Origin: Gammaproteobacteria bacterium
GTDB lineage: Bacteria; Pseudomonadota; Gammaproteobacteria; Pseudomonadales; Azotimanducaceae
DNA: 64,000 nt
Assembly: GCA_018666555.1 (NCBI GenBank)
Contig: JABIZD010000102.1
Span: forward strand, 1-64,000
Reading direction: 5' to 3'
In this document: positions 1 to 15,048 of the stretch, piece after piece
Position numbering within the stretch: position 1 is the first letter of the stretch
How the letters are laid out: the number at the start of each line of letters is the position of its first letter
Translations under genes and position numbers: made by a program
Notes under the pieces: model-generated
What the model saw: the letters and a program-made list of their open reading frames with translations, nothing else
What the model was told of the DNA's origin: nothing
The model's database searches: none

Positions 1-126
1 ATGGAGTTACAGACCTGGATTGCAGCCTGTGCTGCCCACTATGCCTGTGGAGGCGCGCGTCCCAACTTAGATGTTTATACCGTTGCACCGGAAATCGGCA
101 TTGCCTGTGGAATTGTTCACAGTTAG
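1..126 (+). CDS. C-terminal end of an unrecognised protein (partial)
   Basis: An open frame runs from the first base of the window to a TAG at 124-126, giving 41 residues rich in Ala, Cys and Gly and ending ACGIVHS. The ATG at base 1 is probably internal, because the window cuts the gene. I do not recognise the family from this tail. The next gene starts 334 bases later on the same strand, so membership in one operon is unlikely. It may also be a chance open frame. Confidence 0.3.
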   Translation: MELQTWIAACAAHYACGGARPNLDVYTVAPEIGIACGIVHS

Positions 127-460
127 GTGCAACCTACCCATACGCTCCAGACGGCCTAGCCCTTCATAAAGATTAAGGATTAATTCTTGTTATCAAGAAA
201 TACAGTTTCTCGGAATATCCGGGCAACGCGAATCAGACCAAAATCGCTGAGGATGCATTACAGCGCAATTTTTCCTATTATGAAGGTTAACCATTTGCTA
301 GCAGGAACAGTAAACCGAGCAATGTAAACAGGAGAGAACCCTACACCTGCCACCTTCAGCGACTTGGATTATCGGCAGGATCAACTTATTCTGACTTGAC
401 TCGTGATTAACTTATCACCCCAACTAAGGGTGCCAAACTGACGACGCAGGGATACAAACG
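127..460. other. Intergenic stretch upstream of the ThDP enzyme gene
   Basis: 334 bases without a credible gene. The only clear signal is an AGGGA ribosome-binding site at 448-452, 8 bases before the ATG at 461. I see no convincing promoter, repeat or terminator hairpin. Confidence 0.5.
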
Positions 461-2374
461 ATGACAAAAAAACAATCGGACACACCCTCAAAGACCGGTT
501 CAAAAATCAGTCGACGGGGTTTTATCGGCGCAAGTGTTGTCGGCGGCGCAACCACGGTTCTAGCACCAACCGCATTGGGCAATACTAACGAAGCTGCAAC
601 AAACCCAGCCAAATCGCTGCCGCCAAGCGAAGCGCAAATGGAGCGCGAAGTCGGCAGCAGCATGCCCCCTGAACCCATACACAATGTAAAGCGAGCGGCA
701 TCAGATTTAATGGTTCAGGTATTAAGAGACCTGGAGATCGAGTACGTTGCCCTCAATCCCGGATCAAGTTTTGAGGGTTTACAGGAATCGCTGGTCAACT
801 ACGGTGACAACCCAAACACAATGCCAGAGGTAATTTCCGCCCTACACGAAGGCTCCGCTGTCGACATGGCCCACGGCTATGGCCGCGCAGAAGGCAAACC
901 AATGTGCGCGCTGATACAGGGCACGGTTGGGCTTCAAAATGGGTCCATGGCTATCTACCAGGCTTTTCACGGCAACACCCCGCTCATCGTATTGGCGGGT
1001 AATGACCAACATAACTTTCTTAAGGTCCATACCGGCGAAGACATCGCTGCTCTGGTGCGGCCGTTTACTAAATGGGATGCCCAACCTGAAACACTTGAGG
1101 AAACTCTGGTCGCACTCCAGGAGGCCTACCGGCAGACCATAACACCACCATGCGCCCCGGTTCTGGTGGTTTTAAACTCAGAGATTCAAAAACAGGAAGC
1201 TGGAGATGTACAGCTGCCCACCTATACATCCCCTGATATCCAGGGTATCAGCCAGGACCAGGCAGATGTTATAGCACAAGATCTCATTCAGGCAAAAAAC
1301 CCGCACATATCCGTAGGTCGATTGCGAACGCCGCATGGAATTGCCAGCGCGGTAGAGCTAGCTGAGTCAGTGGCCGCATCCGTTGACACCACGGCAACCC
1401 AGGGTCCAATGAGTTTCCCCCAACGGCATCCCCTGGTAGGGCCTGGTACCGATAAAGATTACGACTACCACCTGGGGCTCGAAAGAAATGCCTCACAAGT
1501 ATCGATCACCGGCCCCAGTTTAAAATCACTCATGAAACGGGATGTGGCGGGTGTCAGGTTTGGCTGGATGCAAGACCCGTCGATGAGACGAGGGCCTACA
1601 CCCGAAGTCCTGCTCAATGCGGACGCGGAAGCCAGTATCCAGCTGATAACTGACGCTGTCAGACAAAGACTAACTGAAGAAGTTACCCGCTCAATCGGCG
1701 AAAGAAACCAGGCCAACACCAAGAATAACCAGACGTTCAAAATGAAATCTCTACGCCAGGCTATAGAGAAGAAACGGCCCGGCTGGAATGGTACGCCAGT
1801 AAGCCTGGCTCGAATGTACGCTGAGTTATGGCCTCTGATCAAGGATCTGGATTGGTGCCTGGCCTCGCCAACGCATTTCAGCGGACGCCATCATCGGGAG
1901 CTCTGGGATCACGATAAACCCTACAGTTATCTGGGCCAATTCCCGGCAGCAGCGCTTGGCTACGGGCTTGGAGCCTCAACCGGTGCCGCTTTAGCTGCCA
2001 AGGACAGGGATCGGATTGTCATTAATATTCAGGCTGATGGTGACTTTAATTATATGCCGGGTTCCATATGGAGTGCCGCGCATCACAGGTTACCCATGCT
2101 GATCATCATGCATAACAACCGGGCCTGGCATATGGAACTGATGTACCTTCAATATATGGCAGGCGTCAGGGGGCGCGGCACTGACAGAGCTCACATTGGT
2201 ACCACATTCAGGGACCCATATATCGATTTTGCCAAAATAGCCGAGGGCTATGGCATGAAAAGTGAAGGACCTATCAGTGATCCAGAGCAAATGGTCGCTG
2301 CCTTAAAACGAGGTGTCGACACAGTCAGAAACGGCGAACCTTACCTCATTGATGTGCTGACACAGCCAAGGTAA
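461..2374 (+). CDS. Tat-exported thiamine-diphosphate-dependent enzyme (acetolactate synthase/benzoylformate decarboxylase superfamily)
   Basis: 637 residues. The N-terminus has a twin-arginine signal (S-R-R-G-F-I-G near residues 18-24, then a weakly hydrophobic Ala/Gly/Val stretch), so the folded enzyme should reach the periplasm. The ThDP enzyme architecture follows: a PYR domain at about 70-245 with the activating Glu130 in ALHEGSAVDMAHGYGRA, a middle domain at about 265-400, and a PP domain at about 440-630. The Mg/ThDP motif begins ADG (525-527) and ends with Asn-Asn at 552-553; the spacing is canonical but the usual first Gly is Ala. The family cleaves or forms bonds next to a 2-oxo group; the substrate cannot be read from sequence. 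An AGGGA site precedes the start. The cytochrome c gene begins 5 bases after the stop, suggesting that electrons from the reaction go to the respiratory chain (inference). Confidence 0.85.
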   Translation: MTKKQSDTPSKTGSKISRRGFIGASVVGGATTVLAPTALGNTNEAATNPAKSLPPSEAQMEREVGSSMPPEPIHNVKRAASDLMVQVLRDLEIEYVALNPGSSFEGLQESLVNYGDNPNTMPEVISALHEGSAVDMAHGYGRAEGKPMCALIQGTVGLQNGSMAIYQAFHGNTPLIVLAGNDQHNFLKVHTGEDIAALVRPFTKWDAQPETLEETLVALQEAYRQTITPPCAPVLVVLNSEIQKQEAGDVQLPTYTSPDIQGISQDQADVIAQDLIQAKNPHISVGRLRTPHGIASAVELAESVAASVDTTATQGPMSFPQRHPLVGPGTDKDYDYHLGLERNASQVSITGPSLKSLMKRDVAGVRFGWMQDPSMRRGPTPEVLLNADAEASIQLITDAVRQRLTEEVTRSIGERNQANTKNNQTFKMKSLRQAIEKKRPGWNGTPVSLARMYAELWPLIKDLDWCLASPTHFSGRHHRELWDHDKPYSYLGQFPAAALGYGLGASTGAALAAKDRDRIVINIQADGDFNYMPGSIWSAAHHRLPMLIIMHNNRAWHMELMYLQYMAGVRGRGTDRAHIGTTFRDPYIDFAKIAEGYGMKSEGPISDPEQMVAALKRGVDTVRNGEPYLIDVLTQPR

Positions 2375-2379
2375 ATAAA

Positions 2380-2805
2380 ATGATCAAAAACCTATTAAGC
2401 AGCCTAGTCGTTTACTTAGTAAGCGCCCTTTCATCGCCTGTATTAATAACAGCAGAGCCAATAACTGGCAACGCCGCAAATGGCAAGGAACCCTACTTTA
2501 ACCATGGCTGCTATGCCTGTCATGGGTACCGTGGCATTGGCAAGCACAATATCGCCAATGATGTCAGTGGCATCATGATGAACGAAAGCGTTTTCCTGAT
2601 ATTCCTTCGGGCTCGCAGTGAGCTCAATCCGCCTTTACCATTCCAGGGGATGCCGCACTATCCAGAATCCAGTCTGGCCGATGCTGAAGCGCTGGATATC
2701 TATGCCTATATTAGAACCTTTAAGGATTCGCCACCGCTGGCAGAATCCAATACAACGCTACAGGCAATAATCAGATCCGCGCAGTCCCAGCACCAGGCCC
2801 AATAG
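2380..2805 (+). CDS. Small class I cytochrome c, exported
   Basis: 141 residues. A Sec signal peptide spans about residues 1-26. The single heme attachment motif is C44-Y-A-C47-H48, and the likely axial Met is in PFQGMPHYPESS, followed by the typical C-terminal helix (ALDIYAYIRTF). The protein is therefore a periplasmic one-heme electron carrier. It lies 5 bases downstream of the Tat-exported ThDP enzyme with an AAGG site inside the end of that gene, so the two are almost certainly co-translated. The natural reading is an electron acceptor for the ThDP enzyme, in the manner of cytochrome subunits of periplasmic dehydrogenases, but no close precedent is evident to me. Confidence 0.88.
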   Translation: MIKNLLSSLVVYLVSALSSPVLITAEPITGNAANGKEPYFNHGCYACHGYRGIGKHNIANDVSGIMMNESVFLIFLRARSELNPPLPFQGMPHYPESSLADAEALDIYAYIRTFKDSPPLAESNTTLQAIIRSAQSQHQAQ

Positions 2806-3018: not shown

Positions 3019-4359
3019 TTATCTCACCTTTAACTGATATGCAAAGAGTCCGCCGATCAACATGGGGATACCGAAAAGGAGGAAATTGCTGGTAATTGAA
3101 AAACCCGTAGCAAGCATATAGCCCGCTAATCCTGGACCAATGACCGCGCCCAATCGCCCCAAACCAATGGCCCAGCCTACGCCGGTACTACGAATTTCGA
3201 TCGGGTATAACTTGGCAGCAACAGCATACATACCGGTGTAGCCTCCTTGAAGACTGACGCCAATCAGGAAGATAAGCGTCATGAGCAAGACCTCAGTGAC
3301 AGCGGTCCAGGACGCGGCGGCGGCAAAAACCCACATAAGAATCGCTGCAGTAATCGCAAAAATACTGATCAGGTTGGACAGTGACCATTTCGACGCCATC
3401 GAACCGAGCATAACGATTCCGACCACACCACCAAAATTAAACAGGGTAAAGGCGAGATTACCGGACTCTGCTGAGTAACCGAGGTCAATAATCAGTTTCG
3501 GTATCCAACTCATCAGGAAATACAGTGTACTGATACAGAGGAAAAAGGTTGCCCATAATGTGAGCGTAGAACGCCGCAGTTCCGGGGTAAGTAACGACAG
3601 CATTTTTTCAAGAATCCCTTGCCGATCAACCTCCACCGCTCCATCTGACTGATTGATCAATGGCATTTCGTTTAGAGGCTGAATCGAAAACCCAGCCAAT
3701 ATATTATTGACCTTCTGTAATGCGTTAGCCGGTTGTTTTTTACACAAAAACTGAAGCGATTCCGGGATAAAAATGAAGGCAACGATGGCCAGCACCAGGG
3801 TGACTGAGCCGCCGGCAACAAACATACCACGCCAGCCAAATTCAGGCACAATACTACTCGCCACCATCCCGGTCATCATGGCCCCCAGGGGATATCCCGC
3901 GGTCACTGCGGTCACCGACAGGGCTCGAAACCGTTCAGGACTGTATTCCGAGGCGAGTGTGGCAACACTTGCCAGCATGGCACCGGCACCCAGGCCACTG
4001 ATAAACCGGAGGACAATCAACCAGGTCAAAGAATCAACCAGGGAAGTCAGTACGACAGTCGACCCCACCAACAACAGCGTGATGATAATCATGGTACGTC
4101 GACCGATAACATCAGACAGCGTTGCCAAAAACATGGCCCCCATCATCATCCCGAGCAGGGAAAAGCTGAACACGAGGCCCAACTTATCCGTACTCAGTCC
4201 CATTTCTTCACCGATCTGGTGGGCAGTTACGGCCATGGCGGTAATATCAAAGCCGTCTATCATATTAAAGATCAGGCAAAGCCCGACGATCATAATCTGT
4301 TTAGCGGAGAAACCGCCGCGGTCGATGAACTCACTGATATTGAGAGGGGCTGCAGTCAT
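3019..4359 (-). CDS. MFS transporter, aromatic acid:H+ symporter (AAHS) type
   Basis: 446 residues with about 12 membrane segments. The loop between segments 2 and 3 carries the MFS signature (DVIGRR), and the opening (GGFSAKQIMIVGLCLIFNMIDGFD) is typical of the AAHS group that imports benzoate-type acids with protons. The start overlaps the P450 stop as ATGA, so translation is coupled. It is the last gene of the minus-strand operon hpaG-hpaR-P450-MFS, which points to uptake of the aromatic substrate of the Hpa pathway or of the P450. The exact substrate is not readable from sequence. Confidence 0.88.
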   Translation of the reverse strand: MTAAPLNISEFIDRGGFSAKQIMIVGLCLIFNMIDGFDITAMAVTAHQIGEEMGLSTDKLGLVFSFSLLGMMMGAMFLATLSDVIGRRTMIIITLLLVGSTVVLTSLVDSLTWLIVLRFISGLGAGAMLASVATLASEYSPERFRALSVTAVTAGYPLGAMMTGMVASSIVPEFGWRGMFVAGGSVTLVLAIVAFIFIPESLQFLCKKQPANALQKVNNILAGFSIQPLNEMPLINQSDGAVEVDRQGILEKMLSLLTPELRRSTLTLWATFFLCISTLYFLMSWIPKLIIDLGYSAESGNLAFTLFNFGGVVGIVMLGSMASKWSLSNLISIFAITAAILMWVFAAAASWTAVTEVLLMTLIFLIGVSLQGGYTGMYAVAAKLYPIEIRSTGVGWAIGLGRLGAVIGPGLAGYMLATGFSITSNFLLFGIPMLIGGLFAYQLKVR

Positions 4360-5657
4360 TTTTTCTTATCCCATTTAGCGTAAAGTTTTAAAGGACCTCG
4401 GAAGGTTATATTCGGGGCAAACGAAAATGTCTGGTTTTCAACCAGCCTCAGGCTGGGCACCCGGGTTACCAATGCCTCAATGGCTATCTGTGCTTCCAGC
4501 CTGGCCAGTCTTGCCCCCAGGCAGAAATGAATTCCATAGCCAAAAGCAATGTGCTTATTTGCATTATGCCTATCAATATCAAAATCAGCAGGACCAGGGA
4601 AAAGACTTGGATCACGATTGGCAGCACCCAGACTAATAAATACGCGAGTGCCTTTGGGTATCTTAACCCCTTCTAATTCAGTGTCCTGGGTAGCCACACG
4701 GCGCCAGCTTATCTGAGGGGAATCAAACCGAAGCACCTCTTCAAGCATACCCGGTATAAGAGACGGATCCTGGCAACAGGCATCCCACTGTTCGCGCCTG
4801 GGCAAAATATTTCGCAGCGCAAGCCCAATGAAATTACTGACAATTTCATGACCGGCAAAAGACAACCCGTAGATGATCGACTCGACTTCCCTGTAGCTGA
4901 GTTGTTCCGGATCTGCTTTGTGCGCAGCAAGCAGCTCAGAGGTGAGGTCATCGGCAGGTTGTAAATTTCTCTTGGCAACAAAGTCCCGACAATAGCGCCA
5001 GTACCTCAACATATTCTCGGCGATCTCGACCTGTTCCTGATCGGTGGGTTTACCCCAGGTGAAAATCAATCTGTTCGAAGTCCAGTATATCAGCTTGTCA
5101 TCATCGACTTCCGGAAAGCCAATAAACCTGAATATGACTTGCCCTGGCAGGGGATGGGCGAAACACGAGATAAATTCGGCCGGGCTACCCTGATCAAAAA
5201 TCTGGGTCAACAATCTATCCGTCGTTTCCCTTATATAAGGTTCAAGCAACTTCATACGTCGGCCATTAAAACCATCACGTGTGTATTTGCGAATTCGAGT
5301 ATGTTCCGGCTGCTGGCAATTAGACATGACCGCCTGGGGATTGTAATCCTCAGCAGACATGACGGTCCTGGCCTTGTCGCAGACTGGAAATACAGGGTCC
5401 TGAACGTTTTCTGATGAGAACACCTCGTGGTTCTTGAGTACCTGCATGACGTTATCCATTCCCGTCACAACCAGATATCCGAGTTGCTCGGCAAAAAAAA
5501 TGGGTTTCTCAGCGCTCAATTGTTCAAGCTCGGGATAGGGATCATTCAGATAATCCGAGCTGAAGGGCGTAAACACTGAATCGACAGGACACCCACTCGG
5601 CTCGGCAGCGGCTGGAACGCTGATTTTATGATAAGCATCCGGTTTACTTTGGCTCAT
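4356..5657 (-). CDS. Cytochrome P450 monooxygenase
   Basis: 433 residues, soluble bacterial type. The heme-binding loop is FGYGIHFCLGARLAR with the proximal Cys near residue 379; the K-helix ExxR is EEVLR. The I-helix reads SFAGHEIVSN, where the alcohol residue that usually follows the acid (Thr in AGxET/AGxDT) is Ile, which is unusual. The enzyme would hydroxylate or dealkylate a small substrate with O2 and two electrons. No ferredoxin or reductase gene adjoins it. A GGGAG site precedes the start. It sits between hpaR and an aromatic-acid importer, so an aromatic acid is the likely substrate; a role replacing the missing 4-hydroxyphenylacetate hydroxylase is speculative. Confidence 0.92.
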   Translation of the reverse strand: MSQSKPDAYHKISVPAAAEPSGCPVDSVFTPFSSDYLNDPYPELEQLSAEKPIFFAEQLGYLVVTGMDNVMQVLKNHEVFSSENVQDPVFPVCDKARTVMSAEDYNPQAVMSNCQQPEHTRIRKYTRDGFNGRRMKLLEPYIRETTDRLLTQIFDQGSPAEFISCFAHPLPGQVIFRFIGFPEVDDDKLIYWTSNRLIFTWGKPTDQEQVEIAENMLRYWRYCRDFVAKRNLQPADDLTSELLAAHKADPEQLSYREVESIIYGLSFAGHEIVSNFIGLALRNILPRREQWDACCQDPSLIPGMLEEVLRFDSPQISWRRVATQDTELEGVKIPKGTRVFISLGAANRDPSLFPGPADFDIDRHNANKHIAFGYGIHFCLGARLARLEAQIAIEALVTRVPSLRLVENQTFSFAPNITFRGPLKLYAKWDKKK

Positions 5658-5726: not shown

Positions 5727-6221
5727 CTAAATTTTTTCCTGGCCAGACCCTTGAGAGGCGCTAACCGTTTCGCTTGCATCAATCTTCGCAACTATCTCAT
5801 CAAGTAATTCATAGAGTAGTTCGAGCTTACCGTATCCGAACTTTTCCGTGATACCGTTATAATGTTCGACCGAAACCGGCGCGATTTCGTTGAAAAGCTT
5901 TTGTCCCGCTGCAGTCAGTGCTATCACTGACCTGCGGTTATCAGTTTCGGACTGGCTCCTTCTAATCAGAGTGCGTTGTTCCAGATTCCGAATAATCCGA
6001 GACAAACTGGGCATGAGCAGGAAACAGCGATCTCCTAACTCGGTAATATCAAGGCCTTGTTCCTCGTTGAGCGCACGAATGACACGCCATTGCTGCGCAG
6101 AAAGTCCGTTTTCGCGCAACGATGGCACGAATTTCTTCATGACTGCCTCTCGAGCGCGAAGCAGTGCCATGGGTAAAGACCGATCAAAACCACGCAGTTG
6201 TTTAACCGAGGTGGTGGCCAT
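5727..6221 (-). CDS. hpaR: MarR-family regulator, HpaR-like
   Basis: 164 residues with a central winged helix-turn-helix (LSAQQWRVIRALNEEQGLDI through LIRRSQSETDNRRSVIALT). It matches the homoprotocatechuate-pathway repressor HpaR/HpcR in layout, including the N-terminal SLPMALLRAREAVMKKF and the position beside hpaG. Such repressors bind palindromes in the divergent promoter region and release on binding the aromatic acid. The start codon overlaps the hpaG-like stop (TGATG), so it is translated from the hpaG message. Two near-identical palindromes at 7104-7115 and 7168-7179 are its likely operators. Confidence 0.85.
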   Translation of the reverse strand: MATTSVKQLRGFDRSLPMALLRAREAVMKKFVPSLRENGLSAQQWRVIRALNEEQGLDITELGDRCFLLMPSLSRIIRNLEQRTLIRRSQSETDNRRSVIALTAAGQKLFNEIAPVSVEHYNGITEKFGYGKLELLYELLDEIVAKIDASETVSASQGSGQEKI

Positions 6222-7093
6222 CAGACAGACTCATCAATTACTTCATTCGACAAAATGCCAACCCCATCTACCTCTACCTCTACCGTATCTCCGGCTTTCA
6301 AATAGATCGGTGGATCAAATCTGGCACCGGCCCCATTGGGAGTGCCTGTGGCAATAATATCGCCTGGCTTGAAATTGAAGAACTGGGACATATAGGCGAT
6401 CTGATACTTGATTGGAAACATCATATTAGCGGTTGTATCATTCTGCCTTTGTTCGCCATTGATGCGTGTCTTAACTCGCATATCCTCATAAATCGATGCT
6501 TTAAACTCATCAGCACTGACCATCCAGGGCCCAATACTACCGGAGTGATAGAAATTTTTGCCCTGGGTTACATTAAACTTTGAGTGTCGTAACCAATCCC
6601 TGATGGTACCTTCATTCATGATAGTTAATCCGGCGATATGGTCATAGGCATCCTGTTCGGAAATACGATGACCACCTTTGCCTATAATGACCGCGATCTC
6701 GCCTTCATAGTCGAGTTGCACAGATTCTGGCGGACGCAACAAATAATCTGTATGCGAAGTCAGAGAATCCGGTGTTCGCATAAAAAGACTCGGAAATTTG
6801 GGCGCCTCGGAACCATCTTTATACTCTGCATTACGATTAGCATAGTTCACACCAATACAGGCGATTTTCTCTGGACTGGCAATCGGTGGCAGATAACTGA
6901 TATCTGCGGTACTGATATCCGGCGTCAGACCGGCAGCAAGATTCTTTGCCTCATCAAGCCGCTGGGTCTCCAGAGCCTGCTTAAAATCGCAGGCCATTCG
7001 ACCACCCAAGTCGATGACTCCATTACCAGTGATCACACCCCACGATGGACGGCCTGCAGCCATAAAGGAAAGAAATCGCATAGTTTGTCCCAT
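6221..7093 (-). CDS. hpaG: Fumarylacetoacetate hydrolase-family enzyme, HpaG-like decarboxylase/isomerase
   Basis: 290 residues: a short N-terminal domain, then a FAH-fold catalytic domain from about residue 75 (ACIGVNYANRNAEY, metal-binding LDYEGEIAVIIG, and NEGTIRDWL through TQGKNFYHSGSIGPWM). In E. coli HpaG two FAH domains in one chain decarboxylate 5-oxopent-3-ene-1,2,5-tricarboxylate and isomerise 2-hydroxyhepta-2,4-diene-1,7-dioate. Here there is one domain, so it either does both steps or only one. It heads the minus-strand operon, divergent from hpaE. Assignment to the Hpa pathway rests on neighbours; by sequence alone it could be another acylpyruvase-type enzyme. Confidence 0.8.
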   Translation of the reverse strand: MGQTMRFLSFMAAGRPSWGVITGNGVIDLGGRMACDFKQALETQRLDEAKNLAAGLTPDISTADISYLPPIASPEKIACIGVNYANRNAEYKDGSEAPKFPSLFMRTPDSLTSHTDYLLRPPESVQLDYEGEIAVIIGKGGHRISEQDAYDHIAGLTIMNEGTIRDWLRHSKFNVTQGKNFYHSGSIGPWMVSADEFKASIYEDMRVKTRINGEQRQNDTTANMMFPIKYQIAYMSQFFNFKPGDIIATGTPNGAGARFDPPIYLKAGDTVEVEVDGVGILSNEVIDESV

Positions 7094-7205: not shown

Positions 7206-8723
7206 ATGACGACCTATGAGGACAATCTTTTAAAATCGCGGGATTACCTTCGAAGATTCAGTGAGACTGTCACCGGTCATTTCATTAATGGTCAGTTTGA
7301 GGTACCTGCAGGAGCACAGACCTTTGAAAACCTGGCGCCTGCCGACAACACGTCATTAGGCAAAATTGTTGCCGGAACAGAACAGGATATTGACCGCGCC
7401 TGTGAAGCAGCAAAGACAGCATTCCCCGAATGGCGTGATATGCCAGGCTCAGCACGCAAAAAACTGCTCAATCATTTTGCTGACTTAATCAATGATCGTG
7501 CTGAGGAAATTGCCCTGATTGAATCCATGGACTGCGGCCAGCCTATCCGGTTCATGAAACAGGCTGCATTGCGGGGAGCTGATAACTTCCGCTTCTTCGC
7601 AGACAAGGCACCCGAAGCAACTAATGGCCAGGCTCTCTACCAGGAGGCGCATACTAACTATACGATGCGCTCGCCTGTAGGACCGGTCGGTATCATTACG
7701 CCCTGGAACACACCCTTCATGTTGTCTACCTGGAAGATAGCTCCAGCACTAGCCGCCGGATGTACTGTTGTTCACAAACCGGCTGAAATGTCACCTCTGA
7801 CTGCCATGTTGCTGGCCGAAGTTGCTGAACAGGCCGGTATTCCTGATGGTGTCTGGAACACGGTAAACGGGTTTGGTGAAACGGCGGGACGACGACTCAC
7901 CGAGCATCCTGCTATCAGGGCGGTCGCGCTGGTGGGAGAAAGTGCCACTGGATCACACATTATGCGCCAGGGTGCTGATACCTTAAAACGCCTTCATTTC
8001 GAATTAGGCGGCAAAAATCCGGTGATCGTTTTTGACGATGCTGATTTTGACCGCGCCCTGGACGCCGTTGTTTTCATGCTCTATAGCCTCAATGGCCAGC
8101 GTTGCACCTCCAGCTCAAGGCTCCTGGTCCAGAGCGGCATAAAAGCTGAATTCATGATTGCACTGCAACAACGAGTCAATAATCTTAGTGTAGGTCATCC
8201 CCTTGATCCTGATACGGAAGTGGGTCCCGTCGTAAGCCAGGAACATTTTCAAAAAGTGATGAGCTACATGGATATTGCCAAAACAGATGGTGCGACCATT
8301 GCTGTCGGCGGTAAGGCCAGAGAGGACCTGGGTAACGGCAACTATATCTGCCCCACCTTGTTCATTGATGCTGATAATTCCATGCGAATTGCCCGAGAAG
8401 AAATTTTTGGCCCGGTGCTGACTGCCATGTCATTTGATTCAGAAGCCGAAGCTGTTCAACTGGCAAATGATACGCCCTATGGCCTTGCAGGATATATCTG
8501 GACACGGGATGTCGGCCGCACCATGCGTCTGGCTAAAAACCTTGAAGCTGGTATGCTCTGGTTCAATTCAGAAAACAACAGAAACCTGCCGTCGCCGTTC
8601 GGTGGCATGAAAGCCAGCGGTATCGGCCGCGACGGCGGTGATTTCAGCTTCGACTTTTATATGGAAACCAAGAACGTGTGTGTCGCACACGATCTTCACA
8701 ATGTGCCAGTGCTTGGTCGTTAA
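7206..8723 (+). CDS. hpaE: 5-carboxymethyl-2-hydroxymuconate semialdehyde dehydrogenase
   Basis: 505 residues, a full-length NAD(P)-dependent aldehyde dehydrogenase. The general base Glu266 lies in FELGGKNPV and the nucleophile Cys300 in NGQRCTSSSR; the cofactor-domain GESATGS precedes them. In the pathway it oxidises the ring-cleavage product of homoprotocatechuate to 5-carboxymethyl-2-hydroxymuconate. A GGAG site precedes the ATG. It is the first gene of the plus-strand operon hpaE-hpaD-hpaF-hpaH, with a putative HpaR operator just upstream. The specific substrate is inferred from the neighbours, since this family is broad. Confidence 0.9.
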   Translation: MTTYEDNLLKSRDYLRRFSETVTGHFINGQFEVPAGAQTFENLAPADNTSLGKIVAGTEQDIDRACEAAKTAFPEWRDMPGSARKKLLNHFADLINDRAEEIALIESMDCGQPIRFMKQAALRGADNFRFFADKAPEATNGQALYQEAHTNYTMRSPVGPVGIITPWNTPFMLSTWKIAPALAAGCTVVHKPAEMSPLTAMLLAEVAEQAGIPDGVWNTVNGFGETAGRRLTEHPAIRAVALVGESATGSHIMRQGADTLKRLHFELGGKNPVIVFDDADFDRALDAVVFMLYSLNGQRCTSSSRLLVQSGIKAEFMIALQQRVNNLSVGHPLDPDTEVGPVVSQEHFQKVMSYMDIAKTDGATIAVGGKAREDLGNGNYICPTLFIDADNSMRIAREEIFGPVLTAMSFDSEAEAVQLANDTPYGLAGYIWTRDVGRTMRLAKNLEAGMLWFNSENNRNLPSPFGGMKASGIGRDGGDFSFDFYMETKNVCVAHDLHNVPVLGR

Positions 8724-8734
8724 GGAGACTCACC

Positions 8735-9586
8735 ATGGGTAAACTTGTCTACGCTGCAAAAATCACCCACGTGCCGTCAATGTATCTATCAGAGATGGAC
8801 GGCCCCCATAAGGGGTGCCGGGATCACGCCATCGAAGGTCACCACCATATCTCAAAACGGTGTCGAGAACTGGAAGTCGACACTATTGTCGTATTCGATT
8901 CACACTGGTTGGTCAACTCGGGTTATCACATCAATAATGCTGCGCACTTCAAGGGCATCTATACCAGCAATGAGTTACCGCACTTTATCAAAAACCTGCC
9001 TTATGAATATGACGGCAATACAGAGCTCGGGCACCTGATAGCCGAAGCTGCCACTGAAGCAGGAGTGCATACGCGAGCCCACCATGATACCAGCCTCAAT
9101 CTGGAATATGGCACACTGGTCCCGATGCGCTATATGAACGAAGACCGGCGCTTCAAGGTCGTCTCCATAGCAGCCCTACTCGCTGTCCATAATCTCGACG
9201 ATAGCGCCAAATTAGGCCGGGCTTTAAGAACTGCCATCGAGGACAAATATGATGGCAAGGTAGCCATATTTGCCTCGGGTTCACTGTCCCACCGATTTGC
9301 CCAGAATGGTACAGCTGATGATTTCCTGCACAAGGTCTGGTCACCGTTCCTGGAGGAGTTCGACCAGCGAGTCATCTCGATGTGGGAAAACGCCGAGTGG
9401 CAGCGTTTTACTGACCTTTTACCCGAGTATGCTGACAAGTGCCATGGCGAAGGCTTCATGCACGATACTGCCATGTTGCTTGGCGCGCTGGGCTGGAATG
9501 AGTACAAGGCTAAAGCCAAGGTCATCAGTCCTTATTTTGGTAGCTCAGGGACTGGCCAGATCAATGTCGAATTCCCGGTACTTTAG
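8735..9586 (+). CDS. hpaD: 3,4-dihydroxyphenylacetate 2,3-dioxygenase (class III extradiol)
   Basis: 283 residues, the same length as E. coli HpaD/HpcB. The frame stays open upstream to 8678, but the ATG at 8735 is chosen because AAGGAG (8722-8727) sits just before it and the protein then begins MGKLVYAAKITHVPSM, with His12 at the LigB-type iron-ligand position. A second likely ligand is His in VVFDSHW. It opens the homoprotocatechuate ring with O2 and Fe(II) in the cytoplasm. It starts 11 bases after hpaE and ends 2 bases before hpaF. Confidence 0.93.
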   Translation: MGKLVYAAKITHVPSMYLSEMDGPHKGCRDHAIEGHHHISKRCRELEVDTIVVFDSHWLVNSGYHINNAAHFKGIYTSNELPHFIKNLPYEYDGNTELGHLIAEAATEAGVHTRAHHDTSLNLEYGTLVPMRYMNEDRRFKVVSIAALLAVHNLDDSAKLGRALRTAIEDKYDGKVAIFASGSLSHRFAQNGTADDFLHKVWSPFLEEFDQRVISMWENAEWQRFTDLLPEYADKCHGEGFMHDTAMLLGALGWNEYKAKAKVISPYFGSSGTGQINVEFPVL

Positions 9587-9588
9587 CC

Positions 9589-9957
9589 ATGGCACATTTT
9601 ATCTACGAATACTCTGCCAACCTGCCTGAACCGTTATTGAATCTTCAAGACCTGATGCAGAAAATGCATGCAAAAGCAGCAGAAACCAAACTGTTCCCGC
9701 TGTCTGGCATCAGAAGCAGGGCCATGAAATGTGATCATTTCAGGATCGCAGATGGGGACCCGGAAAAGGGTTTTATTAATCTCAGCATGAAAATAGGCCG
9801 CGGACGTGACCTGCAAACCCGGATGCAGGCAGGTGAAATGTTTTGGCAAATTATGCTCGACCACCTGGCTCCGCTCATGGCTCAACAGCCAATAACCGTG
9901 TCTTTTGAAATGCGGGAATTAGAAGAACAGGTCAAATTCAATCACAGGAACTTTTAG
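9589..9957 (+). CDS. hpaF: 5-carboxymethyl-2-hydroxymuconate delta-isomerase with Ala in place of Pro1
   Basis: 122 residues, close to E. coli HpaF/HpcD (about 126). The conserved framework is visible: HFIYEYSANL at the start, FPLSGIRSRA, INLSMKIGRGRD and VSFEMRELE. Family members use the amino group of Pro1, exposed after Met removal, as catalytic base. Here the second codon is GCA, so the mature N-terminus is Ala (ATG GCA CAT TTT). No alternative start exists between the hpaD stop at 9586 and this ATG. The role is isomerisation of the carboxylated ring-fission product before HpaG. Whether Ala1 supports full activity is unknown. Confidence 0.9.
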   Translation: MAHFIYEYSANLPEPLLNLQDLMQKMHAKAAETKLFPLSGIRSRAMKCDHFRIADGDPEKGFINLSMKIGRGRDLQTRMQAGEMFWQIMLDHLAPLMAQQPITVSFEMRELEEQVKFNHRNF

Positions 9958-9958
9958 C

Positions 9959-10759
9959 ATGCTTAGCAAAGCGCAGATTGAAGACGCAGCCAACCGTCTC
10001 TACCAGGCAGAGAAAACACAACAGCAGATCAGAGCACTGACCCTGTCCTTCGATATGGACATGGAAGATGCTTACGCAGTCCAGAAAACCTGGGTTGATC
10101 GAAAGTTAGAAGATGGTGAAAAAGTAATCGGCTATAAAATCGGCCTCACTTCCCGAACCATGCAGCTTGCCATGAACATCGATACACCAGATTACGGTGT
10201 GCTTACCGATGCCATGAAATTCGCCAATGGCGCTAAGATCTCTGCGCAGGCTTTCCTGGACCCAAGAATTGAATGTGAATTTGCCTTTGTAATGGACAAA
10301 CCCCTGTCCGGCGATAACGTTTCTCTCGAAGAAGTCATGGATGCGACTGCATACATACAACCGGCGCTGGAGCTGATTTCTGCCCGCAGCCTTCGCGTTG
10401 ACCCGGAAACCGGTTATACCCGAAATGTCTTTGACACGATTGCTGACAATGCCGCCAATGCCGGTATTATCTGTGGCGGTGAAAAAATGGCACCGCAAGA
10501 TATAGACTTGAAATGGGCTGGAGCCGGCCTCTACCTCAATGGTGACATTGAGGACACCGGACTCGGTGCTGCTGTCATGGGCCATCCAGGCCATGGTATT
10601 CGATGGGTCTGCAAACGTTTTGCCGCACATGGTATCGGCCTTGAACCCGGCCAGGTCATTCTTTCCGGATCTTTCACCAGGCCCGTCGCTGTTAAGACTG
10701 GAGATCGTATTTTCGCCGATTATGGTGAATTCGGTTCAATTGAGGTGAGTTTTGTATAG
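9959..10759 (+). CDS. hpaH: 2-oxo-hept-4-ene-1,7-dioate hydratase
   Basis: 266 residues, matching E. coli HpaH (267) in length and type (hydratase/decarboxylase family with MhpD). Recognisable segments are VIGYKIGLTSRTMQ, the acidic metal-binding FLDPRIECEFAFVM and the C-terminal LEPGQVILSGSFTRPV. It adds water to the linear diacid so that an aldolase (HpaI) can split it into pyruvate and succinate semialdehyde. No hpaI follows; the next gene is unrelated and 265 bases away. The ATG is one base after the hpaF stop. Confidence 0.93.
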   Translation: MLSKAQIEDAANRLYQAEKTQQQIRALTLSFDMDMEDAYAVQKTWVDRKLEDGEKVIGYKIGLTSRTMQLAMNIDTPDYGVLTDAMKFANGAKISAQAFLDPRIECEFAFVMDKPLSGDNVSLEEVMDATAYIQPALELISARSLRVDPETGYTRNVFDTIADNAANAGIICGGEKMAPQDIDLKWAGAGLYLNGDIEDTGLGAAVMGHPGHGIRWVCKRFAAHGIGLEPGQVILSGSFTRPVAVKTGDRIFADYGEFGSIEVSFV

Positions 10760-10946: not shown

Positions 10947-11024
10947 TTGGGCCTTCCTTAAGAACCTATTATGAGAGCAAAACCTGATTATCGGTCGCAG
11001 CGCCTGCGGCAAACTGGAGGGATT

Positions 11025-12068
11025 ATGCTGTTGAGACTGATTTGCCTGTCTATCGTGCTGCTGTTCAATTCTGGTAGCCTTGCGCACCATTCGAGAGCAG
11101 CTGTCGACCTCAACCTGAAAGCCGAAGTAATCGGCACGGTCGACCTATTGACCTGGAGGAACCCACATATATTCATAAGCGTCTCGGGAACTGATAAACA
11201 GGGTAACAACGGAACCTGGGTGCTTGAAGGGCACTCAATATCAGGCATGCTGAACCACGGCTGGCGCAAAGATTCAATAAAGGTAGGTGATCGCGTAACG
11301 GCTATCTTCAGCCCAAATAGAAAAGCAGACATAAAAAATGGCCTGATAGACCACTTTATCCGAGAGGACGGTAAGCATTTCTATGCTTTCAAATCAGCCC
11401 CCGATGACAAAAATTTTAATCCCAAGTTCAAAAAACCGATCAAACCTTCTAAAGACTTTTCCGGCAATTGGAGTTACCCGCGTTCCCTGTTGAGCGTCTT
11501 GGTGAGCGGTGCGCCTGATTACAGTCGTTATGCTCTTTCCGCGCAGGGCAAAGCAATGCTTGAAGCTTTCGACCCTTCGGTGGACCCAGACCTTAAATGC
11601 GAGAGTCGGGGCCTTCCTAATCTGGCCTTGTATGTTTACGGGTATCGCTGGAAACGATTCGGCGATCGGATAGAGATTGAAAAGGAACAAGCAATTATCG
11701 CTGAGGAACACAGAACAATCTACCTGAATGCTGAACAGGTGCCTGAGCAAAAACCCAGTATGCTTGGATTATCAGTGGGCCACTTTGAGGAAGAGGGTCA
11801 ATTACTGGTGGTAGAAACCAGCAACTTCCTGGCAACCACCTGGGGCATTACCGAGGGCATTGATTCCAGTAGCAGCAAACGTGTGCTGGAACACTACCGT
11901 TTGACCAATGGCGGCCTACGTATGCAGGTTTCAATCTTAGTTGAAGACCCTGTCTACCTCGACAAGCCTTTTCGACTATATGGCGTCTATGATAAGAAAA
12001 GAGACCGGGAATTTGTGCATTCACCTTGTGACATTGAAGTTGCCCAAGAGCATCTCAAATACGAATAA
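11025..12068 (+). CDS. Exported DUF6152-family protein
   Basis: 347 residues. The start at 11025 is preferred over an upstream in-frame ATG (10971) because GGAGGG (11017-11021 region) precedes it and it gives a clean signal peptide (MLLRLICLSIVLLFNSGSLA). The mature protein opens with HHSRAAVDL and AEVIGTVDLLTWRNPHIF, the hallmark of DUF6152, a periplasmic domain of unknown function common in bacteria with many hydrophobic-compound genes. The rest (about 130-347) is poorly conserved to my eye. It stands alone on this strand. No enzymatic role can be assigned. Confidence 0.75.
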   Translation: MLLRLICLSIVLLFNSGSLAHHSRAAVDLNLKAEVIGTVDLLTWRNPHIFISVSGTDKQGNNGTWVLEGHSISGMLNHGWRKDSIKVGDRVTAIFSPNRKADIKNGLIDHFIREDGKHFYAFKSAPDDKNFNPKFKKPIKPSKDFSGNWSYPRSLLSVLVSGAPDYSRYALSAQGKAMLEAFDPSVDPDLKCESRGLPNLALYVYGYRWKRFGDRIEIEKEQAIIAEEHRTIYLNAEQVPEQKPSMLGLSVGHFEEEGQLLVVETSNFLATTWGITEGIDSSSSKRVLEHYRLTNGGLRMQVSILVEDPVYLDKPFRLYGVYDKKRDREFVHSPCDIEVAQEHLKYE

Positions 12069-13632: not shown

Positions 13633-15048
13633 TCACCTTGACGCCTTCAGTTCCTCAAGGATCTCTTTGTGACGCGCTCTGCTGATCCCATAAAAACTAA
13701 TGCAGACCACCGCCATCGCAGTCAGAATGATCACTGCGGGTCCGAGCGCCCAGCCAAACCGATTAACCGCTTCAACTGACACCATGGACGGATCTGCTCC
13801 CGGAGGAATTCCAGCAAAATCAATGATAAGGCCAGCGAAGATCGCACCCGAACCGGCGATGGCTTTTCCGGCAAACGAGGCGGCAGCATAATAAATACCC
13901 TCCTGCCTTCTGCCATGACGCCGCTCATGTTCATCCGTGATATCAGCAATCATCGATGATCCAAGTGGAATCGCTGCTCCAAGACCCAATCCTGAAACAG
14001 CACCACTGATAATATACAGGGGCGCGATCAAGGGATCTCCATTCGGGGGTAGAAGATCAAGTAAACGCAGGATAATAACGTAGGAAGTAAACACCGCGTA
14101 CCAGCAATGGCCAGCAATATAGAGATGCTTTTTTTCTTTTATAATTCTGGACAGAGGGCTCGTCAGAAGGGCGCCACTGACCACTCCAACGACGCCACCA
14201 GTAAAAAGCAACGTCATCTGGCTAGCTGTTAGTTCAAAAAAATAGGTTCCCGTATAAATAATGAGGGCTTGAACCATACCCTGGCTCATTCCGGCAATAA
14301 TCGAAGCCAGCACTACGGAGGCAAAGGACGGGATCAGAAAAGCGCGAGCCATATCCCGAATCATGAGCGCAGGAGAAAAGACATCATCTGGCTCGGGCTG
14401 GGGTAAATTGGGAATCTGACTGTGCGTTCCCAACGCTGATGCCCAGACCCCTGCCACCATGATAAAAAAGCAGGCTAACGCAAATGGTGGGTAAGCGTCG
14501 GGATTCAGCTGCCCGTTTTCGAATTCAGAGGTTGCTGCAAAAAACACCAGCGGACCACCGATGAGTACAGCAAACATACCTAGCAGCTGCAGCACCATGC
14601 GAACCGAGGATAGGACGGTCCGCTCGTCATAATCGCTAGTTAATTCAGCACCAAGGGACATATGCGGTACCGAATAAAAAGTCATGAAGGTACGAGTCAA
14701 TATTGAAAACAAGGTCAGCCACCAGAACAGACCCATCTCCCCCAAACCTGAAGGTGGTGCAAACAAAAAGTAGAAAGAGGCGGCAAACGGAATCGCCGCC
14801 AGATACATATAGGGATGCCTTCTGCCCCATCGAGAACGAGTGACATCAGACAGGGAACCCACTAACGGATCACTAATCGCATCAATCAGCAAGGCAATAA
14901 AAATAGCCATGCCAGAAAGTGTCCCGGATAACCCGAGAACCTGATTGTAATAGAACAGTAAAAAGAAGCCGAACGCGGCTGACTTTATCCCTTCAGGTAA
15001 TTGCCCTACACCAAATGCCAGTCTTATTCGCCATGAAACCTGTCGCAT
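13633..15048 (-). CDS. GPH-family sugar/cation symporter (MelB-like)
   Basis: 471 residues with 12 predicted membrane segments. The N-terminus (LAFGVGQLPEGIKSAAFGFF, then DAISDPLVGSLSDVTRSRWG and RRHPYM) is diagnostic of the glycoside-pentoside-hexuronide:cation symporter family, in which the Asp residues of helix 2 bind the coupling cation. The conserved C-terminal segment GSSMIADITDEHE is also present. GPH homologues in environmental proteobacteria often lie far from sugar genes, as here, so the substrate is open. It is divergent from the CoA-transferase gene. Confidence 0.87.
   Translation of the reverse strand: MRQVSWRIRLAFGVGQLPEGIKSAAFGFFLLFYYNQVLGLSGTLSGMAIFIALLIDAISDPLVGSLSDVTRSRWGRRHPYMYLAAIPFAASFYFLFAPPSGLGEMGLFWWLTLFSILTRTFMTFYSVPHMSLGAELTSDYDERTVLSSVRMVLQLLGMFAVLIGGPLVFFAATSEFENGQLNPDAYPPFALACFFIMVAGVWASALGTHSQIPNLPQPEPDDVFSPALMIRDMARAFLIPSFASVVLASIIAGMSQGMVQALIIYTGTYFFELTASQMTLLFTGGVVGVVSGALLTSPLSRIIKEKKHLYIAGHCWYAVFTSYVIILRLLDLLPPNGDPLIAPLYIISGAVSGLGLGAAIPLGSSMIADITDEHERRHGRRQEGIYYAAASFAGKAIAGSGAIFAGLIIDFAGIPPGADPSMVSVEAVNRFGWALGPAVIILTAMAVVCISFYGISRARHKEILEELKASR

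Follow-up and report, generated by a model that had tools for sequence, protein, structure and literature searches.

We analysed a stretch of 64,000 nucleotides, here called the window, from the Gammaproteobacteria bacterium assembly GCA_018666555.1 (Azotimanducaceae; contig JABIZD010000102.1, positions 1 to 64,000), in which a gene for a thiamine diphosphate (ThDP)-dependent enzyme with a twin-arginine translocation (Tat)-type signal is followed, after a gap of 5 bases, by a gene for a cytochrome c. The genome is a fragmented metagenome-assembled one (4.17 Mb in 217 contigs), and the window begins at the first base of its contig C39. The pair and its parts are laid out as follows:

461..2374, forward strand: Tat-type signal-bearing ThDP-dependent enzyme of the pyruvate oxidase (POX)/decarboxylase superfamily, 637 aa (Pfam TPP_enzyme_N and TPP_enzyme_C)
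461..580, forward strand: N-terminal twin-arginine signal region, residues 1–40 (SRRGFIG at residues 17–23; RR codons at 512–517)
698..1033, forward strand: PYR-type domain match, TPP_enzyme_N (E130 at 848–850, H190 at 1028–1030)
1889..2356, forward strand: PP-type domain match, TPP_enzyme_C (D526, N552, N553; E559 at 2135–2137)
2380..2805, forward strand: exported monoheme class I-type cytochrome c, 141 aa (CYACH at 2509–2523; MPHY motif)

The product of the 461–2374 open reading frame (ORF) begins MTKKQSDTPSKTGSKISRRGFIGASVVGG... and matches TPP_enzyme_N over residues 80–191 (E 2e-19) and TPP_enzyme_C over residues 477–632 (E 8.4e-23), both over the Pfam cut-off; the middle domain TPP_enzyme_M gave no Pfam match in this protein at E <= 0.001, and the structure model is of low confidence there. 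Across 32 aligned rows, the window among them (15 signal-bearing, 17 not), there is no variation in E130, the Glu that activates the cofactor, or in D526, N552 and N553 of the metal site; a GDG...NN metal site is present, the first G of GDG being A in the window. With both domains, the activating Glu and the metal site, the window protein is a member of the ThDP POX/decarboxylase superfamily. The protein encoded by 2380–2805 has a hydrophobic leader and scores 31.5 bits against a cut-off of 21.3 for PF00034 (Cytochrom_C); with this match, its CxxCH motif and, on the C-terminal side, a putative axial-Met motif (MPHY), it is a class I cytochrome c.

The signal stretch of the ThDP enzyme, residues 17–39 (SRRGFIGASVVGGATTVLAPTAL), is of the twin-arginine type. 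A linker reaches from the signal region to about residue 78 and the catalytic part starts near residue 79, while signal-less relatives align to the window protein only from about residues 74–81 on. R18, R19 and F21 are invariant across signal-bearing relatives down to 34% identity (13-row alignment A2), and RRxF stands near the N-terminus in all 15 full-length members of the signal-bearing clade (window, L030–L033, L036–L039, L045–L048, L055 and L056), so that the signal is more than chance. For comparison, among 177 other ORFs of the neighbourhoods with a length of at least 150 aa, 10 show a looser RR pattern, and several of these ten themselves look like Tat proteins. The window's own genome encodes TatC as well as cytochrome c assembly proteins. 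Given the RRxF motif, a moderately hydrophobic h-region and Tat machinery in the genome, the enzyme has the features of a Tat substrate and its export is predicted; the Tat route is the expected one where a protein has to take up its cofactor prior to export. The preliminary description of this DNA, which had proposed a twin-arginine signal on a full-length ThDP enzyme and, 5 bases downstream, an exported single-heme cytochrome c, was right in both parts and in where it placed them, as the two Pfam domains, the conserved RRxF and, for the cytochrome, the leader, CYACH and PF00034 match attest. In the signal-less locus L008, an upstream alternative start would prepend LLRRAIG, which we did not count as a Tat signal, since no hydrophobic stretch follows it.

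Comparison of loci showed that signal and cytochrome occur together. A CxxCH gene lies directly next to the ThDP gene in all 18 clade loci with downstream sequence, that is, the 15 full-length ones and L035, L040 and L041, in which the N-terminus is missing and which were assigned to the clade by similarity; at L034, L016 and L014 the motif is present, but the sequence stops before the cytochrome position. The gap between the two genes is –1 to +13 bases in 17 of these loci and 67 in L047, measured to the start codon nearest the ThDP stop, which biases it towards small values. CxxCH and MPxY are found in 18/18 partner cytochromes, one of them diheme (Caballeronia), and in Novosphingobium a second cytochrome c gene lies behind the first. 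On the other hand, no CxxCH ORF was seen within flanks of about 0.7–1.5 kb at 11 signal-less genome loci (L008, L018–L026, L029), and none of 10 signal-less plasmid loci (L054, L057–L061, L067–L070) has a CxxCH gene adjoining; the two CxxCH frames at L054 are over 4 kb away from its ThDP gene. A CxxCH neighbour is therefore present at 18/18 signal-bearing clade loci vs 0/21 signal-less relatives, with no mixed case among the loci examined. Conserved co-occurrence of the two genes in other genomes, which the preliminary description had named as its check, is borne out by these 18 loci. Its converse concern, that homologues might mostly lack both the Tat signal and the cytochrome, applies to the signal-less relatives, which have neither, and not to the signal-bearing clade, which is cytochrome-linked throughout.

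When exported (15), signal-less (17) and outgroup (2) rows were placed in a maximum-likelihood tree, the exported rows fell on one side of a single branch (support 98/99), and the exported clade is recovered again (98/100) with everything before residue 79 removed, so that the grouping is not a product of the shared signal. The trees were midpoint-rooted and do not show the signal-less rows as one group (L067–L070 stand outside them); gain of the signal rather than its loss appears the likelier direction, though not a proven one. The cytochrome is a dedicated family of the exported ThDP enzyme. Its profile (A4) has one match in the window's own genome (E <= 0.001) and, at E <= 1e-8, matches in 5 of the 206 genomes sampled from the family and in 4 of the 390 from the order, which are 8 genomes with the own one counted once, and every match in these two sets adjoins an exported ThDP gene. 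The ninth exported genome of the two sets, G459, carries beside its ThDP gene a diverged cytochrome that the A4 profile missed. Pairwise distances within 16 ThDP/cytochrome pairs (the partial pairs L040 and L041 excluded) are correlated with r 0.97, a value reached in 0 of 5000 label permutations; this is joint inheritance and not evidence of contact, because shared ancestry alone also yields such a correlation. Chance adjacency of the two genes is rejected by the single clade and the 18/18 conserved adjacency. Since the relatives split into those with signal and cytochrome together and those with neither, a functional ThDP–cytochrome pairing outside the cytoplasm is well supported by sequence comparison.

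When the whole window protein was used as query (E <= 1e-40 in the family, order and phylum genome sets), the family set gave relatives in 6 of 206 genomes, the order set in 13 of 390 (4 with the signal, 9 without) and the phylum set in 2 of 398 (the own genome and the signal-less G238); an exported-only profile at E <= 1e-120 matched 1 of 369 genomes of the class, again the own one. Rarity is approximate here, as the class and phylum thresholds are strict (1e-120, 1e-40) and at most three candidates per genome were scored among the matches listed. A scan of genome contigs gave 12 loci with 57–88% identity to the window protein, duplicate contigs (e.g. L009/L038, L010/L030, L011/L031) being counted once. 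Plasmid searches returned 10 records with the window protein and 20 with the Caballeronia protein as query; 12 of the latter were examined (10 signal-less, 2 exported), the plasmid set leaving out H15, H16, H18, H20–H23, H27 and the second place in H24. Loci from metagenome-assembled genomes are labelled Gammaproteobacteria, Proteobacteria, Pseudomonadales, Cellvibrionales, Woeseia and Woeseiaceae, and exported members occur on plasmids of Caballeronia zhejiangensis (Betaproteobacteria) and Novosphingobium sp. KACC 22771 (Alphaproteobacteria). The exported ThDP–cytochrome system is rare in the genome samples, yet not limited to one lineage. Viral contigs scanned with the exported profile held no relatives, and tblastn of the window cytochrome against plasmids gave no match, though the Caballeronia and Novosphingobium partners exist, because these two are too diverged.

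Two further observations concern copies of the pair. Genome G843 has two different exported ThDP–cytochrome pairs, L047 (C43) and L048 (C90), at 54–56% identity to the window, which perhaps serve different substrates. In the window's own genome, contig C143 (L053 1–563) overlaps window 1–557 with 83% identity over 567 bases and agrees with it in gene order (end of the LigB dioxygenase, start of the ThDP gene, RR signal); it represents either a diverged second copy or a related strain binned into the same assembly.

The closest solved structures by sequence and profile are benzoylformate decarboxylases (BFDC; 4q9d, 1bfd, 7orx), followed, among the 60 best, by acetolactate synthases, carboligases and benzaldehyde lyases, and in NCBIfam the protein is below cut-off in the best 25 of 45 matched models. 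Foldseek of the AlphaFold model places it in the ThDP superfamily (best E 1.2e-21, TM-score about 0.4), which confirms the superfamily only and not the mechanism. For the active site, residues were mapped by a HMMER alignment to BFDC chain 4k9o, its chain numbering taken as UniProt minus one; E559 aligns with BFDC L461 and H190 with BFDC L110. Position 559 is Glu in 15/15 exported rows and Asp (15) or Ser (2) in the 17 signal-less ones. H557 and H551 are likewise invariant in exported rows, vs 0/17 and 1/17 in signal-less rows, while H190 is present in 14/15 and 17/17, respectively.

E559 and H190 correspond to E473 and H114 of pyruvate decarboxylase (PDC). As listed in Table 1 of PMC13327070, the Glu+His pair is that of bacterial and yeast PDC, indolepyruvate decarboxylase and yeast 2-oxo acid decarboxylase; Leu+His is given for phenylpyruvate decarboxylase, Leu+Leu for benzoylformate decarboxylase, Glu+Gln for two 2-hydroxyacyl-CoA lyases and sulfoacetaldehyde acetyltransferase, Ile+Gln (I480, Q122) for pyruvate oxidase, and Val or Ile+Gln for acetohydroxyacid synthase and glyoxylate carboligase. 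The same source assigns the Glu to carbanion protonation, has it only in enzymes listed as protonating, and gives the Glu-to-Asp change as very harmful in PDC, in view of which the Asp of most signal-less relatives is notable in its own right. By its residue pair, the active site is of the 2-oxo acid decarboxylase type: Glu559 and His190 are the residues of PDC and indolepyruvate decarboxylase (Glu not being universal in such enzymes, as phenylpyruvate decarboxylase has Leu) and not the hydrophobic residue plus Gln listed at I480/Q122 for pyruvate oxidase.

The genes around the pair in the window are the following:

1..126, forward strand: LigB-family extradiol dioxygenase, C-terminal end only, truncated by the contig start (context)
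3019..4359, reverse strand: major facilitator superfamily transporter, aromatic acid/H+ symport type, AAHS-like (339.5 bits, below the 418.55 cut-off)
4356..5657, reverse strand: cytochrome P450 (best matches below cut-offs)
5727..6221, reverse strand: HpaR, regulator of homoprotocatechuate degradation (over cut-off)
6221..7093, reverse strand: fumarylacetoacetate hydrolase-family protein, HpaG-like (below cut-off)
7206..8723, forward strand: HpaE, 5-carboxymethyl-2-hydroxymuconate semialdehyde dehydrogenase (over cut-off)
8735..9586, forward strand: HpaD, 3,4-dihydroxyphenylacetate 2,3-dioxygenase (over cut-off)
9589..9957, forward strand: 5-carboxymethyl-2-hydroxymuconate isomerase-like protein (below cut-off)
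9959..10759, forward strand: HpaH, 2-oxo-hept-4-ene-1,7-dioate hydratase (over cut-off)

Judged by these matches (NCBIfam cut-offs for HpaR, HpaE, HpaD and HpaH), the neighbourhood is one of predicted homoprotocatechuate meta-cleavage genes, with HpaD about 6 kb from the ThDP–cytochrome pair. By BLAST clusters, several of the neighbour genes have homologues that accompany the pair in L042, L043, L044, L050 and L051, and the L042 homologue of the LigB-family protein resembles 3-carboxyethylcatechol 2,3-dioxygenase, below cut-off. A gene of the HpaD cluster is present in the same stretch at six loci (window, L042–L044, L032, L033) and is over cut-off where scanned (window, L032); in L032, labelled Proteobacteria, it directly adjoins the ThDP gene in divergent orientation, and in L033 (Woeseiaceae) a homologue has that place. 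Elsewhere, MmgE/PrpD-family genes occur in the surrounding stretches of L045 and L046. In L047 the cytochrome gene is followed by one for an FMN alpha-hydroxy acid dehydrogenase (13738–14949, PF01070). This protein has its own RRRFLK start and is apparently a second exported flavoenzyme of the gene group; among solved structures it is closest to hydroxy acid oxidases, including those for lactate, glycolate and hydroxymandelate. An alpha-hydroxy acid oxidase also lies beside or near the gene at two of the five annotated plasmid loci from signal-less relatives: on the Salipiger plasmid the ThDP gene is placed between two aldehyde dehydrogenases and the oxidase comes next, and on the Rhizobium plasmid the oxidase follows the ThDP gene. 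A sequence from 2-hydroxy acid through 2-oxo acid to acid would fit these three loci (L047, Salipiger, Rhizobium), and the cytochrome would then occupy the place that an NAD aldehyde dehydrogenase has in the cytoplasmic setting.

Other gene families recur around these loci. A 4,5-DOPA-extradiol-dioxygenase with an N-terminal KRREFLR, possibly a Tat-exported ring-cleavage enzyme, is encoded at L042 5146–6009, L043 4997–5860 and L052 4573–5436 (the L042 copy over the NCBIfam cut-off, L043 and L052 by BLAST cluster). Three scanned proteins match DUF6152 in Pfam (window 10971–12068; L042 6022–7257 and 7345–8373), and the corresponding BLAST cluster C2 has 21 members in 10 of 20 compared loci, often as several copies around aromatic-degradation loci. 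At L047 8977–12766, DUF1552 and DUF1587/1592-type proteins come after the pair, the DUF1552 one with an SRRHVLRG start.

The reading we favour, and to which we would give an even chance, is that of an exported ThDP decarboxylase in which the cognate cytochrome c accepts the electrons as the intermediate is oxidised. The ThDP enzyme would fold and load ThDP and Mg in the cytoplasm and then leave in folded form via the Tat pathway, while the cytochrome would be exported by its own leader and receive heme from the c-type cytochrome assembly proteins. The periplasmic substrate would be a 2-oxo acid and might be aromatic, for example an arylpyruvate or arylglyoxylate; this substrate class is suggested by the active-site residues and the lineage-variable neighbourhoods. 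Decarboxylation would give a ThDP-bound carbanion/enamine, from which the cognate cytochrome c would take electrons and pass them to the respiratory chain, with the overall reaction 2-oxo acid + H2O -> carboxylic acid + CO2 + 2 electrons. The product acid, one carbon shorter, would be imported and then enter aromatic ring cleavage, for which homoprotocatechuate genes lie near the pair in the window. More tentatively, a flavin-free ThDP enzyme may hand electrons one at a time directly to its dedicated c-type heme, as a periplasmic 2-oxo acid:cytochrome c oxidoreductase, and may have originated once from cytoplasmic decarboxylases, with Tat signal and cytochrome gained together. The preliminary description had likewise proposed periplasmic oxidation with electrons delivered to the respiratory chain; the clade split supports its pairing outside the cytoplasm, while the electron delivery is a step that we infer, and the His/Glu pair resembles that of the aldehyde-forming decarboxylases and not that of pyruvate oxidase in PMC13327070 Table 1.

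Several points weigh against oxidation at the ThDP enzyme. The main one is Glu559/His190 itself, which would speak for aldehyde release and oppose a simple pyruvate-oxidase-like mechanism, because PMC13327070 assigns the Glu to carbanion protonation. A Pfam scan of the pair found no flavin or Fe-S domain for electron transfer. To our knowledge, no ThDP enzyme passes electrons straight to heme. The AlphaFold model of the ThDP enzyme is weak (predicted local distance difference test, pLDDT, 58.5) and that of the cytochrome (pLDDT 63.3) was not used, both values probably being low due to shallow alignments. Neighbourhoods are heterogeneous outside the window's family and the L032/L033 group, and the stretches examined on the Phyllobacterium, Marinibacterium and Neorhizobium plasmids (3/5) hold no alpha-hydroxy acid oxidase or aldehyde dehydrogenase.

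A serious rival, although a somewhat unlikely one, is a periplasmic non-oxidative 2-oxo acid decarboxylase whose aldehyde product is oxidised by another periplasmic enzyme, a dehydrogenase that perhaps has the paired cytochrome as acceptor, so that ThDP and cytochrome would not be direct partners. The pair His190 and Glu559, as in PDCs, indolepyruvate decarboxylase and yeast 2-oxo acid decarboxylase (PMC13327070 Table 1), would suit it, as would benzoylformate decarboxylases as closest solved structures and the signal-less relative between two aldehyde dehydrogenases; but no exported aldehyde dehydrogenase was recognised among the neighbours scanned with family models (29 entries in one group of scans, 5 neighbours in another), a minority of the neighbouring ORFs, and the sole constant neighbour is the cytochrome gene directly downstream. 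Non-oxidative and oxidative decarboxylation alike involve a dedicated exported ThDP–cytochrome pair, which is well supported. Quite unlikely, in our view, is a periplasmic carboligase or lyase (benzaldehyde lyase or acyloin type) that uses aromatic ketols, the cytochrome then oxidising either the carbanion left by cleavage or the product aldehyde: the fold search does return benzaldehyde lyases and carboligases and several neighbourhoods hold aromatic degradation genes, but carboligases, pyruvate oxidase and benzaldehyde lyase have Gln at the His190 position in PMC13327070 Table 1. The fold-search model is, moreover, of low confidence. An aldehyde as the physiological substrate, bound by ThDP in the periplasm and oxidised to the acid by the cytochrome at the Breslow intermediate, would pass through the same intermediate as the proposed chemistry, and aldehydes arise in lignin and aromatic degradation; the His/Glu pair and the alpha-hydroxy acid oxidase neighbours nevertheless indicate 2-oxo acids, and we hold this variant to be very improbable. 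That the two genes adjoin by accident, and that a wrongly called start only simulates a signal on an ordinary cytoplasmic enzyme, such as the signal-less relatives resemble, is scarcely credible, being already contradicted by conservation (RRxF 15/15, adjacency 18/18, a single clade and a dedicated cytochrome).

If the enzyme's site of action is indeed outside the inner membrane, then ThDP chemistry is not restricted to the cytoplasm, and the gene pair points to an undescribed route for organic acid breakdown there. Should oxidation by the cognate cytochrome hold, bacteria could oxidise 2-oxo acids without prior uptake and without NAD, CoA or ferredoxin, conserving energy via cytochrome c, and the transfer from ThDP to heme would be the first known to us. 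The pair also offers a tractable system for how one active site switches between aldehyde release and oxidation.

Among known systems, benzoylformate decarboxylase (MdlC) and 4-hydroxybenzoylformate decarboxylase are like the window enzyme in domain order, activating Glu and metal-site D and N. They differ at the active site, where BFDC has L461 and L110 in place of Glu559 and His190 and where BFDC H70 aligns with Gln in 7/13 signal-bearing rows of alignment A1, the window included; the window protein reaches 161.1 bits with the benzoylformate decarboxylase model PRK07092, below the cut-off of 493. We know of no signal or cytochrome partner for benzoylformate decarboxylases. Pyruvate oxidase uses FAD and is not known to be exported. 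It (PoxB) is a functional analogy only: its carbanion gives electrons to FAD (PMC13327070), and its active-site pair is Ile/Gln there, vs Glu/His in the window enzyme. The best NCBIfam match, nearly full length, is PRK08327, a 'thiamine pyrophosphate-requiring protein' of unknown function, with 169.5 bits for the window, 225.5 for Caballeronia and 245.4 for Novosphingobium, all three below the 456-bit cut-off. PDC, indolepyruvate decarboxylase and yeast 2-oxo acid decarboxylase are cytoplasmic and non-redox. They share the window enzyme's residues at the E473 and H114 positions (PMC13327070 Table 1), and none of the three is named among the 60 best solved structures for the window protein. Searches of open-access PubMed Central papers brought up no exported ThDP enzyme with a cytochrome c among the titles and abstract openings listed, which is no proof of absence; the preliminary description likewise knew of no described system with this exact pair. 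Periplasmic dehydrogenase and cytochrome c pairs, such as those of the quinoprotein alcohol dehydrogenases, use pyrroloquinoline quinone, FAD or Mo as cofactor. The window pair is like them in that an exported enzyme is encoded next to its cognate small cytochrome c, and unlike them in its cofactor, ThDP. The parts are of known kinds, their combination and location are new to us, and the chemistry would be categorically new only if direct ThDP-to-heme transfer holds.

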